Below, piece after piece: positions 5,427 through 9,482 of a DNA stretch of 33,725 nt. Positions within the stretch are counted from its first letter, which is position 1. Each line of letters starts with the position of its first letter. Origin of the DNA: Opitutus sp. (GTDB lineage: Bacteria > Verrucomicrobiota > Verrucomicrobiia > Opitutales > Opitutaceae); assembly GCA_013821985.1 (NCBI GenBank), contig PNJQ01000040.1, forward strand, positions 1 through 33,725. Reading direction: 5' to 3'. The position numbers and the translations under genes were made by a program. The notes beneath the pieces are model-generated. The model had not been told where the DNA came from and ran no database searches. It worked only from the letters and a program-made list of their open reading frames with translations.

Positions 5427-6506
5427 CTAGACCGATTTGGTCGCCGGATAACTGCCGAGCCACTTCACGAGCGGACATTGCCGGCGCAGGTCCTTCAACG
5501 CCGCCTGCATCGCCGGCTCCTCGTAGTGGCCGCTGACATCGAGGAAGAATATGTAGTCCCACGGCCGCAATCGGCTCGGCCGCGACTCGATCCGCGTGAG
5601 ATTCAATTTCCGCCGGTCGAACGGCTGCAATGCCTTCAGCAACGCACCGGGTTCGTGGTGCAGCGAAACGAGCAGGCTCGTCTTGTCGTGCCCGCGACCG
5701 GCCGGCCCCGAGGGCTCGCGGCCGAGGATGCCAAAGCGCGACGTGTTGTTCTTCTGGTCCTGGATGCGCATCGCCGCCGCGGCGACGCCGTAGCGCTCGC
5801 CCGCGAGTCGCGGGCCGACAGCCGCGGCGCCCTTCTCCTTCGCGGCGCGTTGCACGCCGAGCGCCGTGCTATCGACATCGACGAGCTGCGCATGCGGCAG
5901 ATTGCGCTGCAGCCAGCGGCGGCATTGCGCGAGCGCCTGATCCTTCGAATAGACGCGGCGAATCTTCGCGAGCGGCTCGTTCGAGAGCAGCGTGTGCTCG
6001 ATCTCGAGCTGCAACTCGGCGACAATCTTCAGCGGCGTCTCGACGAACAGATCGAGCGAGTCGCGCACGGAGCCTTCGGTGGAATTTTCGATGGGCACCA
6101 CACCGTAGTCGGCCTCGCCCTTTTCGACCGCGGTGAACACGTCCGCGAGCGACGGCATCGCCCGATACTCGACGCTCGCGCCGAATTTCTTCAGCGCCGC
6201 CGCATGCGTGTTCGTCGCTTCAGGTCCGAGATAGGCGATGACGAGCGGCTTCTCCAATGCGAGCGCCGCCGACATGATCTCGCGATAGATGGCCTGCAAC
6301 GCCGCCGGCTTGAGCGGACCGTCGTTCGCCGCCGCGACGCGACGCAACACATCCGCTTCGCGCTCGGCGACGTAGATGCGTCCGCGCGCGTGACGCTTCA
6401 CCTCACCGATGCGCTGCGCGAGTTTGAGGCGCGCGTTGAGGAGTTGAACGACGCGTTCGTCGAGGGCATCGATCTTCGTGCGAATAGCGGAGAGTTCTTT
6501 TTTCAT
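5427..6506 (-). CDS. pheA: Bifunctional chorismate mutase / prephenate dehydratase (P-protein)
   Basis: 359 aa. It converts chorismate to prephenate and then to phenylpyruvate, the committed steps to phenylalanine. An AroQ-type chorismate mutase domain covers about residues 1-88. The prephenate dehydratase domain spans about 90-265, with YLGPEAT (92-98) and VVPIENSTEGSV (136-147). The motif that is usually TRF reads NTSRF (254-258), so the catalytic-position Thr appears as Ser, a conservative change. A C-terminal ACT domain (about 275-330) holds ESRP (307-310), the usual Phe-binding feedback site. The ATG overlaps the aroF stop in ATGA (6503-6506), so the two are translationally coupled. The longer open frame back to 6653 lies inside aroF and is rejected. 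Expression probably follows the aroF leader attenuator. Confidence 0.95.
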   Translation of the reverse strand: MKKELSAIRTKIDALDERVVQLLNARLKLAQRIGEVKRHARGRIYVAEREADVLRRVAAANDGPLKPAALQAIYREIMSAALALEKPLVIAYLGPEATNTHAAALKKFGASVEYRAMPSLADVFTAVEKGEADYGVVPIENSTEGSVRDSLDLFVETPLKIVAELQLEIEHTLLSNEPLAKIRRVYSKDQALAQCRRWLQRNLPHAQLVDVDSTALGVQRAAKEKGAAAVGPRLAGERYGVAAAAMRIQDQKNNTSRFGILGREPSGPAGRGHDKTSLLVSLHHEPGALLKALQPFDRRKLNLTRIESRPSRLRPWDYIFFLDVSGHYEEPAMQAALKDLRRQCPLVKWLGSYPATKSV

Positions 6507-7558
6507 GCGTGGGTGGCAACGGCGGGTTGGGGACGCAGCGCGGCGTGGAGTGCGCGGGCGCGCTTGATCAAATCCGTGAGCACGGCGGGCGTGACGGCCT
6601 GTTTCGGATCGTCGCCGATGCCGTGCGACGGGCTGACGTGCGCTTCGAGACAAAGCCCATCGCAGCCGTAAGCAACCGCGGCAAGCGCGGCGGCAGGGAC
6701 GTAGCCGGCCTTACCGACCGAGTGTGACGGATCCACGACGACCGGCGCCCACGTTTTTTCCTTCAGCAGCGGCGTGATCGATTCATCGGGCTGGTTGCGG
6801 TAGCCGTCGAGCTGCGGCTGCGTGCCGCGCGGGCAGAGGATGACGTTGGGATTGCCGAAGGCCGCAATGTATTCGGCGGCGGAGATGAACTCGCTCAGCG
6901 GCCCGTTGTGGATGCTGCGCTTGAGCATGACGGTCGTGTTGCGCCCGGCGATCGCGCGGCCGATCTGGCGGAGCAGCGAGTAGTTGAGCGCATTGCGCGC
7001 GCCGATCTGCAGCACGTGCACACCGCAATCGAGCGCGAGATTGATGTGCTCCTGTTCCATCACCTCGGTCACGACCGGGAGGCCGGTGCGACGCGAAGCC
7101 TCCATCAGGATTTCGAGAGATCGCGCGTCGCCTTGGAAGCTGTAGGGATTCGTGCGCGGTTTCCACACGCCGCCGCGCAGCGCATTGGCCCCGGCTTCCT
7201 TCACCGCCTGCGAGGTCTCGAGGTAATAATTGGGATTCTTCGGATCGATGGTGCACTGGCCGGCGATGACGAGGAGTTCATCGCCGAGAGTGACACTGCC
7301 AATTGCGATACGGTGGTTGGCGAGGTCCGAGCGGCGGTCCATAAGCTTGAACGGCGACTGGATGCGATCGATCCGGTCGATGTAATCGAGTCCCTCGAGG
7401 CGGTTGATCATCAGGTCGTCGCGCTCATCGCCCACGATGGCGTAGATGGTGCGCACGGCGCCGACGATCGGCTGAATCTTGCAGCCGAATTCGGCGACCA
7501 CGCCGGTGATTTCGACGACCTGTTCGGGCGTGAGGCGATTGTTCTTGGGAAGAATCAT
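6503..7558 (-). CDS. aroF: 3-deoxy-7-phosphoheptulonate (DAHP) synthase, type I-beta, divergent
   Basis: 351 aa. It condenses phosphoenolpyruvate and erythrose 4-phosphate, the first step of the shikimate pathway. A ferredoxin-like/ACT-like N-terminal regulatory domain covers about residues 1-75, as in the Thermotoga-type I-beta enzymes. The barrel follows. The usual GPCS reads AGQCTID (99-105), keeping the metal Cys102. KPRTNPYSFQG (133-143), LQIGARN (183-189), DPSH with His279, Glu305 and Asp316/317 are present, so the metal site looks intact. Two motifs differ from the common I-beta form: KRSIHNGP where KRG plus ATIEE is usual, and CPRG where CERG is usual. The ATG at 7558 is preceded by a pyrimidine-rich stretch with no Shine-Dalgarno. 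It is first in the aroF-pheA operon, behind an attenuator. Confidence 0.92.
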   Translation of the reverse strand: MILPKNNRLTPEQVVEITGVVAEFGCKIQPIVGAVRTIYAIVGDERDDLMINRLEGLDYIDRIDRIQSPFKLMDRRSDLANHRIAIGSVTLGDELLVIAGQCTIDPKNPNYYLETSQAVKEAGANALRGGVWKPRTNPYSFQGDARSLEILMEASRRTGLPVVTEVMEQEHINLALDCGVHVLQIGARNALNYSLLRQIGRAIAGRNTTVMLKRSIHNGPLSEFISAAEYIAAFGNPNVILCPRGTQPQLDGYRNQPDESITPLLKEKTWAPVVVDPSHSVGKAGYVPAAALAAVAYGCDGLCLEAHVSPSHGIGDDPKQAVTPAVLTDLIKRARALHAALRPQPAVATHA

Positions 7559-7606
7559 GGTGAGAGGAGAGCGGGGGAGGAGACGGGGTGCAGTTGCCGG
7601 GCGTGG

Positions 7607-7640
7607 AAAACAAAAGAGCCGCCCGGGTGAGGGCGGCTCT
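7607..7640 (-). terminator. Intrinsic terminator / attenuator in the aroF-pheA leader
   Basis: On the minus strand a perfect 10-bp stem, AGAGCCGCCC (7640-7631) with GGGCGGCTCT (7624-7615), closes a 6-base loop and is followed directly by TTTGTTTT (7614-7607). It lies 57 bases before the aroF start and just after a Tyr/Phe-rich leader ORF. It is therefore best read as an attenuator of aroF-pheA rather than the terminator of glgA, whose stop is 375 bases upstream. Confidence 0.85.
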
Positions 7641-7736
7641 GGTGCTAAAATCTGGTGAGTCAGTTTATGCTTCGAGACAGCCGCCCATGGTTCGCGGGGC
7701 AAAAAAACCGGCGAACGCAAAATAGTAATAGGCGGC
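7615..7736 (-). promoter_or_regulatory. Four-segment attenuator (pause hairpin, antiterminator, terminator)
   Basis: Four segments on the minus-strand RNA can pair alternately. Segment 1 is GCCGCC (7736-7731), the two Ala codons just before the Tyr run. Segment 2 is GGGCGGCT (7686-7679). Segment 3 is AGAGCCGCCC (7640-7631). Segment 4 is GGGCGGCTCT (7624-7615). 1:2 gives 6 bp, 2:3 gives 8 bp and 3:4 gives 10 bp plus a T-tract. A ribosome stalled on the Tyr/Phe codons would cover segment 1 and free segment 2 to form 2:3, allowing readthrough. A ribosome that reaches the stop codon (7665-7667) would cover segment 2, so 3:4 forms and transcription ends. This is the logic of the known trp and phe attenuators. 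The pairings are seen; the mechanism is inferred. Confidence 0.8.
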
Positions 7737-7748
7737 GGAACTAAGCAT
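7665..7748 (-). CDS. Tyr/Phe-rich leader peptide of the aroF-pheA operon
   Basis: A 27-residue ORF with ATG at 7746-7748 and TAA at 7665-7667. Residues 7-10 are Tyr-Tyr-Tyr-Phe, and Phe recurs at 12, 15 and 16, so seven of 27 residues are Tyr or Phe, all before the segment that forms the antiterminator. This is what a leader that senses charged tRNA-Tyr and tRNA-Phe should look like, and the genes below it make the shared precursor and phenylalanine. It resembles PheL in concept; no sequence homology is claimed. No Shine-Dalgarno precedes the ATG, but most genes in this window also lack one. An ATG inside the ORF (7686-7688) is unlikely to be the true start because it would leave out the Tyr/Phe codons. 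Confidence 0.78.
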   Translation of the reverse strand: MLSSAAYYYFAFAGFFAPRTMGGCLEA

Positions 7749-8015
7749 CGGCCAAGAGGCGTGGCGGCGCGGCCACCGCGTGTCAACGATGCGCTTGCCC
7801 GCGCGTGTCATAGCTCGAGCGGTAGGGCGGTGAGTCCTTCACCAGGGATTTGCCACGAAAAACACCGGAAGCCTTTTGCGCCGCGGACGTGATGGTCGGG
7901 CGGCTATCGCCGCCATAAAATCTCCCGTGCGGTCAGCCCTTTGTGTTTTTCGTGGCCAAAGGATTGAGGCAGGGCGCGACTTCGGCGCGGACGGAGTCCA
8001 CCCTCCCCTCAGGAC
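7749..8015. other. Gene-free region between glgA and the aroF leader
   Basis: 267 bases downstream of glgA and upstream of the leader peptide. It holds the inverted-repeat element at 7848-7960. It also has a 5-bp stem at 7829-7843 (GGTGA/TCACC) and, on the minus strand, a perfect TTGACA (7786-7781) without a matching -10 at normal spacing. The aroF leader promoter must lie here or overlap it, but I cannot place it. Confidence 0.5.
7848..7960. repeat. 113-bp inverted-repeat element with an inner hairpin
   Basis: The 14-base sequence GCCACGAAAAACAC (7852-7865) recurs as its exact reverse complement at 7943-7956. Both are flanked by TTTG-type bases, so the arms extend to about 17 bases with one inserted base. 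Between them, at 7899-7914, is a second perfect hairpin, GGCGGC-TATC-GCCGCC. This nested palindrome has the look of a dispersed non-coding repeat or MITE-like unit. It carries no ORF of note. Only one copy is seen in this window. Confidence 0.6.
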
Positions 8016-9482
8016 TTACGGCGCCACGCCCGTGCGCGACTCGACGGCCCAGCGATACGCATCGACGTATTTCGGCGCGTTGCTCGCCCACGAAAAATCC
8101 TGCGCCATCCCGCGCAGCTGCATCGCGCGATATTCGGCGGGGCGATCGTAATACACGGCGCATGAGCGCCCGATCGCTTGATACAGTGCGGCGGAATTGG
8201 CCTCGCGAAACACGAACCCCGTGCCCGCCTCCCCGCCTTCGACGAAGTTCGAAACCGTATCAACCAGACCACCCGTCGCCCGCACGACCGGCGGCGTGCC
8301 GTAGCGCATCGCATACATCTGCGTCAGCCCGCACGGTTCGGAGCGGCTCGGCATCACAAAAAAATCGCTGCCGGCCTGCACGAGGCGCGACAGCGCGCCG
8401 TTGAAACCGACAAACGCGCCAACGCGCCCAGGATAACGCGTCATCGCGTGGCGAAACATCGCCTCGACGCGCTCATCGCCGCTGCCGAGCAGCGCGAATT
8501 GCACGTGCATGCGCTCGACAATGTGCCCGAGCGCTTCGCCCAGCAGATCGAGCCCCTTCTGGTGCACAAGTCGCGCAACGACCCCATAAACCGCAACGTG
8601 GGGATCGATCGTGAGACCGAGTTTTTCCTGCAAGGCCGCCTTGCACTTCGTCTTGCCCGCGAAATCCGCAGCGGAATAATTCGCGGGCAACGACGCATCC
8701 GTTGCCGGATCCCAGGCCGCGGCATCGATGCCATTGAGAATGCCGAGCAGGTCCGCCGAGCGGAAACGCAACACGCCATCGAGCCCGAAGCCGCCGTCGC
8801 GCGTGCGGATTTCCTGCGCGTAGGTCGGACTGACCGTCGTGAGCTTCGTCGAATGATAGAGCCCCGCCTTCATCATGTTCACCGAGCCGTAGCTCTCGAG
8901 GCTGTCGCTGCGAAATTCACCCGCCGGCAGCCGCGCAAACTCCACCAGCGCGCGCGGCGCGAGACCCTGGTGCTCGAGATTGTGGATCGTGAAAACCGTC
9001 GCGACCTTCCCGAGCGTCGTGTCGCGCAACGTCGTGTTGAGCATCACGGGCAGCAAGCCCGTCGTCCAATCGTGGCAATGAATCACGTCCGGAACCCACC
9101 CGAGCTGCTCGCACAGCGTGAGCGCCGCGCGACAGAAAAACGCAAATCGATACGGATTATCGCTCGCCTCGCTGTAAACCTCGGCGCGGCCGAAATACCA
9201 ATCGTGCTCAATGAAATACGCGGGCACCTTGCCACCGGGCAAAGTCGTTTCCCAAGTGCGCGCCCAGCGGGTTTCCGGACCGACCTCGACCCCGAGCGGT
9301 TCCTCACGCGAAATCCATTCGCCGACACGCTTCGTCGTGCTGTAGAGCGGACACATCACGCGCGCATCGTGACCGAGCGCGGCGATCTCCTTGGGCAACG
9401 CGCCGACCATGTCGGCCAAACCACCGACTTTCACGAAGGGCTCCACCTCGGGTGAAACGAACAGAACCTTCAAGGGACGCAT
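8016..9482 (-). CDS. glgA: Glycogen (starch) synthase, GT5 family
   Basis: 488 aa, the normal length for GlgA. It extends alpha-1,4-glucan chains using ADP-glucose. The N-terminal GT5 domain starts with KVLFVSPEVEPF and K18-V-G-G, the nucleotide-sugar binding lysine loop, here with Val where Thr is usual. HCHDWTTGLLP and the region around IHNLEHQG follow. The C-terminal Rossmann domain has VARLVHQKGLDLL, LLGSGDE and PSRSEPCGLTQMYAMRYG, with the catalytic-site Glu in SEPCG, then VRATGGLVDTV. The start ATG at 9482 gives the canonical N-terminus. It lies 36 bases downstream of the FAD oxidoreductase on the same strand and may share its transcript, though no functional link is obvious. No other glycogen gene is in the window. 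Confidence 0.95.
   Translation of the reverse strand: MRPLKVLFVSPEVEPFVKVGGLADMVGALPKEIAALGHDARVMCPLYSTTKRVGEWISREEPLGVEVGPETRWARTWETTLPGGKVPAYFIEHDWYFGRAEVYSEASDNPYRFAFFCRAALTLCEQLGWVPDVIHCHDWTTGLLPVMLNTTLRDTTLGKVATVFTIHNLEHQGLAPRALVEFARLPAGEFRSDSLESYGSVNMMKAGLYHSTKLTTVSPTYAQEIRTRDGGFGLDGVLRFRSADLLGILNGIDAAAWDPATDASLPANYSAADFAGKTKCKAALQEKLGLTIDPHVAVYGVVARLVHQKGLDLLGEALGHIVERMHVQFALLGSGDERVEAMFRHAMTRYPGRVGAFVGFNGALSRLVQAGSDFFVMPSRSEPCGLTQMYAMRYGTPPVVRATGGLVDTVSNFVEGGEAGTGFVFREANSAALYQAIGRSCAVYYDRPAEYRAMQLRGMAQDFSWASNAPKYVDAYRWAVESRTGVAP

Follow-up and report, generated by a model that had tools for sequence, protein, structure and literature searches.

The aroF gene in the window, a 33,725-nt stretch of DNA from Opitutus sp. 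(contig PNJQ01000040.1), is preceded by a leader unit which, judged from its sequence and that of its homologues, is very probably a ribosome-mediated transcription attenuator of aroF that senses shortage of aromatic amino acids. The minus strand carries the whole layout, which runs from a short leader ORF through a pairing segment (arm 2) and a terminator to aroF and then pheA. A sequence-only reading of the window had proposed this feature without giving its strand; the feature itself was recovered, with all of its parts on the minus strand:

7786-7605, minus strand: leader unit overall
7781-7786, minus strand: -35 box TTGACA of the predicted leader promoter, its distance to the leader start being kept across loci
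7757-7763, minus strand: -10-like element CACGCCT (family consensus CACNNCT, from a 45-locus position profile)
7748-7750, minus strand: predicted transcription start, 0-2 nt 5' of the leader start codon, placed by the constant spacing between box and start and by the preceding C
7665-7748, minus strand: leader ORF MLSSAAYYYFAFAGFFAPRTMGGCLEA, 27 codons plus stop, with homologues at 50 other loci of the family
7728-7736, minus strand: arm 1 GCCGCCTAT, pairing with 7688-7680 in the fold
7679-7686, minus strand: arm 2 GGGCGGCT, 5' arm of the antiterminator, codons 22-23 (Gly-Gly) of the leader
7631-7640, minus strand: arm 3 AGAGCCGCCC, common to antiterminator and terminator
7615-7624, minus strand: arm 4 GGGCGGCTCT, 3' arm of the terminator
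7640-7615, minus strand: terminator stem of 10 bp, 7640-7631 with 7624-7615
7605-7614, minus strand: T-rich terminator tail TTTGTTTTCC
6503-7558, minus strand: aroF, 3-deoxy-7-phosphoheptulonate (DAHP) synthase with a ferredoxin-like regulatory domain, ATG at 7558
5427-6506, minus strand: pheA, chorismate mutase-prephenate dehydratase (P-protein), overlapping the aroF stop by 4 nt
9482-8016, minus strand: glgA, the upstream neighbour, stop at 8016

The leader unit in the window

The 27-residue leader peptide, read directly from the ORF at 7748-7665, contains Tyr at residues 7-9 and Phe at residues 10, 12, 15 and 16, exactly as the sequence-only reading had it. At least seven aromatic residues occurred in three of the 487 window ORFs of 18-40 amino acids, the leader ORF being one of the three and two of the three being nested in one another. 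As expected of an attenuator, the leader is a short ORF rich in codons for the amino acids of the pathway encoded downstream. Re-measurement of the RNA arms agreed with the initial description on three points: the first eight bases of arm 4 are identical to arm 2; the 8-base core of arm 3, AGCCGCCC (7638-7631), is able to pair with either of them; and arms 3 and 4 form a 10-bp stem followed by a T-rich tail. Pairing of arm 1 with arm 2 was also found again, over nine positions (7736-7728 with 7688-7680) rather than the 6 bp given at first. Folding of the RNA, which had been suggested as a check, placed the free RNA 7760-7600 at 5.4 standard deviations below dinucleotide shuffles, none of 200 shuffles being as good.

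The AroF polypeptide matched Pfam PF00793 and PF18152 above cut-off; NCBIfam DAHP synthase models were its best matches but remained below their own cut-offs. PheA matched the Pfam domains CM_2, PDT and ACT; its NCBIfam match, NF008865, was above cut-off.

Distribution of the unit in the Opitutaceae

At E 1e-3, 34 of 38 relatives yielded an aroF homolog, of which only 23 were full-length strong matches; at E 1e-60, one was present in 170 of 200 genomes of the family. Upstream DNA was compared at 143 loci, one per genome (23 + 100 + 20), comprising 140 loci from the Opitutaceae and three from other families; the first set of 23 comprised 20 of the family loci and the three others. The 140 are a portion of the aroF loci that the family has. 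The whole unit stood before aroF at 51 of the 140 Opitutaceae loci, and these represented 12 genera. It was found at none of the three loci from other families, a thin sample. Within the genus of the window all ten loci with a full aroF had it, the other three of the 13 same-genus genomes having yielded no full aroF, so that the short Tyr/Phe ORF and arms that had been anticipated in related genomes were indeed present there. The 51 loci consisted of 45 from the main scan and six added ones; one listing of 45 required TTGACA at 35-42 nt before the leader start, and a listing made without that rule also gave 45. The 89 family loci without the unit were judged as such by a GCCGCC/GGCGG terminator rule, and 123 loci were also scanned for terminators and ORFs in general; one negative locus (L073) offered only 84 nt of upstream sequence.

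On a tree of AroF that covered 96 of the 143 loci, seven changes sufficed to explain where the unit is present, compared with 32 when labels were shuffled; gains and losses of the unit were poorly separable because 41 of the 93 inner branches had support below 80. A search of 288 genomes of the phylum with an RNA model (R1) matched 13, ten of them in the Opitutaceae, under strict filters that missed unit-bearing genomes of the family (including G045, G069 and G088), so that a lack of matches elsewhere does not imply absence. Two of the three matches outside the family resembled ordinary terminators, the third (G241) being left out.

Aromatic codons and operon context

Aligned on their last aromatic codon, the 51 leaders had Phe, Tyr or Trp at codons 0, -1, -4 and -6 in 100%, 84%, 92% and 84% of cases, respectively, and in 0-2% at codons +1 to +7, while the remaining positions were variable. 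Each leader contained four to nine aromatic residues. Phe was present in all 51 leaders (mean 4.96 residues per leader), Tyr in 50 (mean 2.0) and Trp in 24 (mean 0.47), with a preference of Trp for a single column, codon -3, which it occupied in 17 of the 51. The Phe and Tyr codons of the leaders mostly ended in U (TTT 165/253, TAT 66/102; 65% each), and those of aroF itself preferentially ended in C (TTT 165/619, 27%; TAT 270/920, 29%).

The pheA gene followed aroF at 19 of the 51 loci, all in one clade and accounted for by one inferred change on the AroF tree. The other 32 loci (26 of 45 in the main set) had aroF without an adjoining pheA, which was located elsewhere or not found nearby; a convergent mutS was the next gene after aroF at two such loci that were checked, and others looked alike by eye. 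None of 20 stand-alone pheA loci examined was preceded by a Phe leader. The attenuator unit belongs to aroF and not to the aroF-pheA pair: where an attenuator of aroF-pheA had been proposed, the assignment to aroF stands and that to pheA applies to a single clade. Likewise, the Tyr/Phe codon set described for the window leader is correct and has to be widened for the family, with Trp codons in 24 of the 32 leaders outside the pheA clade and in none of the 19 within it. Since the linkage of pheA arose once, the absence of Trp codons alongside it is one coincidence and not a tested correlation; in independent contrasts of Trp against pheA, only one pair of loci was comparable. If functional as described, the unit offers a rare natural series, with leaders with or without Trp codons and an operon that gained pheA, in which the matching of leader codons to operon content can be tested.

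A real, though rather doubtful, possibility is that the unit attenuates in response to Phe only, Tyr and Trp codons being passengers as near neighbours of Phe codons. Phe is the commonest aromatic residue and the one found in every leader, and the operon also includes pheA at 19 loci. In addition, the accessible portion of the literature on the Corynebacterium glutamicum aroR leader describes induction by Phe limitation, with ribosome stalling raising transcription, and no effect of Tyr supply in spite of a Tyr codon (PMC11802643), so that a leader may contain Tyr and Trp codons without sensing these amino acids. Against sensing of Phe only, most leaders precede an aroF gene that lacks an adjoining pheA, Tyr is missing from just one leader, and Trp, where present, favours a fixed column.

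Predicted promoter and leaderless start

The sequence TTGACA was located 36-38 nt before the leader start at 47 of the 51 loci, 41 nt before it at two and 35 nt at one; it was absent at one (L182, among the six added loci). The weight of this box comes from its conservation across loci and not from window statistics, its distance to the leader start being not significant in the window alone (one match against 1.93 expected). At -10 spacing the 45-locus profile gave CACNNCT (C 44/45, A 39/45, C 34/45, T 35/45), which differs from TATAAT, and a promoter search of the leader region of the window found no standard promoter. A C directly preceded the predicted start at 39 of 45 loci. Taken with a 17-nt spacer, the position of TTGACA puts the predicted transcription start at the leader start codon, which suggests that the leader transcript is leaderless. 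The missing Shine-Dalgarno sequence was rejected as evidence for this, as a 4-mer of AGGAGG occurred before one of 51 leaders and likewise before only one of 96 aroF genes.

Two further observations concern these boxes. The occurrence of CACNNCT behind a strong -35 box, in the window and at 44 other loci, makes it conceivable that this element marks a type of promoter specific to the lineage or is bound by a regulator. At six aroF loci that lack the unit (L184, L185, L187, L192, L199 and L167), TTGACA was present 41-59 nt before the aroF start, where it may be a simple promoter without an attenuator.

Competing RNA folds

The last aromatic codon and arm 2 were 15 nt apart in 40 of the 51 leaders, 14 nt in five, 13 nt in one, 12 nt in three and 18 nt in two. 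A stalled ribosome masks roughly 15 nt of RNA in front of its A site. Arm 2 was kept even where it is not translated: in genus g34 the leader ended before arm 2 at six of seven loci (L105, L120, L121, L170, L176 and L178), and AGCGGC was retained there as non-coding RNA 3' of the leader stop, at about the usual distance, showing that the RNA is conserved apart from the peptide.

When a ribosome occupied the last aromatic codon of a transcript still lacking arm 4, arm 3 paired upstream with a probability of at least 0.8 in 50 of the 51 leaders, compared with 10.9% of 1020 shuffles in which the spacer and arm 2 were shuffled. A cruder ribosome mask, too late for leaders with aromatic codons at or after arm 2, gave upstream pairing in 47 of 51. 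The folds with arm 4 absent show the antiterminator expected of an attenuator, a rival structure to the terminator whose 5' arm is left uncovered only by a stalled ribosome. With the stalled ribosome in place and arm 4 present, 3:4 pairing won at equilibrium in 47 of 51 leaders and the probability of 2:3 pairing was at least 0.5 in only four. Because the terminator is favoured at equilibrium, the switch would have to be kinetic, 2:3 forming first and then holding; attenuators are usually taken to depend in this way on which arm is made first. A ribosome placed at the stop codon gave 3:4 pairing in all 51 leaders (a figure without shuffle control), but it also formed in 48 of 51 free RNAs, and the former result is therefore not discriminating.

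Compensatory changes, which the sequence-only reading had called for, differed between the stems. Across 45 leaders 93.8% of the cells of the 3:4 stem were paired, with covariation in three pairs and 16 two-sided changes, a number reached by none of 500 shuffles; together with the 10-bp stem and the T-rich tail, this covariation identifies an intrinsic terminator between leader and aroF. For 2:3, 88.9% of cells were paired around an invariant core, and as that core barely varies, the lack of a covariation signal speaks neither for nor against the pairing. For 1:2, the pairing that in an attenuator safeguards termination when the leader is not translated, 69.9% of cells were paired with covariation above shuffles; by folding, the pairing was obtained in 48 of 51 leaders and in 71.5% of composition shuffles, little better than the shuffles.

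It is highly improbable that another sensor, such as a riboswitch, a T-box or a regulator acting on TTGACA-CACNNCT, controls the terminator with the peptide in a secondary role. The spacer between arms 2 and 3 shows good conservation within the genus, and the upstream boxes strong conservation, which would agree with such a sensor. Between genera, however, that spacer is not conserved, unlike the aromatic codons and the interval that separates them from arm 2. Within the window, no Rfam family scored as high as its gathering threshold; below threshold, the leader matched best to what is itself a leader-peptide family (RF01859, Phe_leader; 24 bits, where the gathering score is 55). A riboswitch or T-box was rejected on the variable spacer and the lack of an Rfam match above threshold. 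Equally hard to credit is an ordinary glgA terminator beside an incidental short ORF, with aroF using its own promoter downstream of 7615: glgA does have the same orientation and ends 230 nt upstream, and the stem-loop is a good terminator, but this was rejected because leader, TTGACA and arm 2 are kept together at 51 loci, many of them behind other genes (for example a pseudouridine-synthase-like ORF, named by eye), and because a plain terminator leaves the fixed aromatic codon positions and the 15-nt gap unexplained.

Proposed mechanism

For the attenuator of aroF we propose that RNA polymerase initiates at the leader start codon or no more than about 2 nt away from it, and that the leader is translated from the leaderless end of the mRNA. 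When charged tRNA runs short for Phe, Tyr or, in other genera, Trp, the ribosome would stall among the aromatic codons with its front edge just short of arm 2. Arm 2 would then pair with newly made arm 3 before arm 4 exists, permitting readthrough into aroF, or aroF-pheA in the window. With ample aromatic amino acids, the ribosome would reach the stop codon and cover arm 2, and 3:4 pairing would terminate transcription. If the attenuator works as read, ribosome-mediated attenuation operates in the Verrucomicrobiota, and transcription and translation would consequently be closely coupled in this phylum, at least at aroF.

A wider form of this proposal, which we regard as quite possible if still slightly doubtful, is that a single leaderless leader reads the supply of Phe, Tyr and Trp together and thereby controls the first enzyme of the shikimate pathway in the Opitutaceae. 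The codon set would be tuned to the operon, Trp codons having been lost as the ancestor of the window clade acquired pheA next to aroF, and the near-constant 15 nt would bring the ribosome edge to the antiterminator such that the last aromatic codon is a sharp switch point.

Relation to known attenuators

The sequence-only reading knew of no attenuator for a DAHP synthase-P-protein operon in this lineage; for DAHP synthase genes elsewhere, one is known and another has been proposed. The closest known system, as far as the accessible portions of its descriptions go, is the aroR-aroF attenuator of C. glutamicum (work of Neshat et al., 2014; PMC11802643, PMC4046766), in which a leader with Phe and Tyr codons (Phe-Tyr-Phe in aroR) likewise precedes a DAHP synthase gene. 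It belongs to another phylum and has a much shorter aromatic run, unlike the Opitutaceae leaders with their higher number of aromatic codons, often including Trp; the likeness is one of description and not of sequence comparison. In Acholeplasma, again another phylum, the uORFC-13-1 motif was predicted as a Phe-coding uORF beside a terminator, exclusively before aroF, and differs in having a ribosome binding site and few Phe codons, according to the part of the report available (PMC8632094). The enterobacterial pheL-pheA system (Phe_leader) resembles the unit in its Phe codons, competing arms, terminator and downstream enzyme of the Phe branch, but controls pheA, whereas the unit of the Opitutaceae goes with aroF.

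Attenuator leaders that are leaderless, with transcripts starting at the leader start codon as predicted here, are described in the accessible portions of reports on Sinorhizobium meliloti trpL (PMC7298713) and several Streptomyces leaders (PMC8079986). These concern other amino acids and other phyla, and the leaderless start was measured in those cases, while for the Opitutaceae it is predicted from the box distance. For phenylalanine/tyrosine operons of the Actinobacteria, the portion of the source consulted reports no conserved upstream RNA structure (PMC1262725). A search of the open-access literature, mostly by title and start of abstract and with subscription papers mostly outside it, found no report of a leader-peptide attenuator in the Verrucomicrobiota. 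This mode of attenuation is known, and its occurrence in this phylum seems to be undescribed. Short leader ORFs are readily overlooked in annotation.

Related leaders in the same genome

An RNA model built from 12 leaders found a Leu/Ile/Val-rich leader before ilvD (L305) in the genome of the window (G000), the downstream gene being identified as ilvD by NF002068 (686 bits). It also found a second leader of this branched-chain kind there (L306), which makes three attenuator-like units in the genome:

G000:C45:22763-22904, minus strand: L305, attenuator-like; leader MTPSLQLSLLAITALIIAVVILLTPSTGRLSHTY, then terminator GGCCGCCC, then ilvD (dihydroxy-acid dehydratase)
G000:C76:2724-2851, minus strand: L306, attenuator-like; leader ending HVVVILFAPIAGRLSHT, and terminator

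The 1.5 kb following L306 contained short ORFs and a tRNA-Thr gene only, with no branched-chain gene seen. In another genome (G116), a similar leader (L321) was noticed before an ORF that by eye resembles ilvD.
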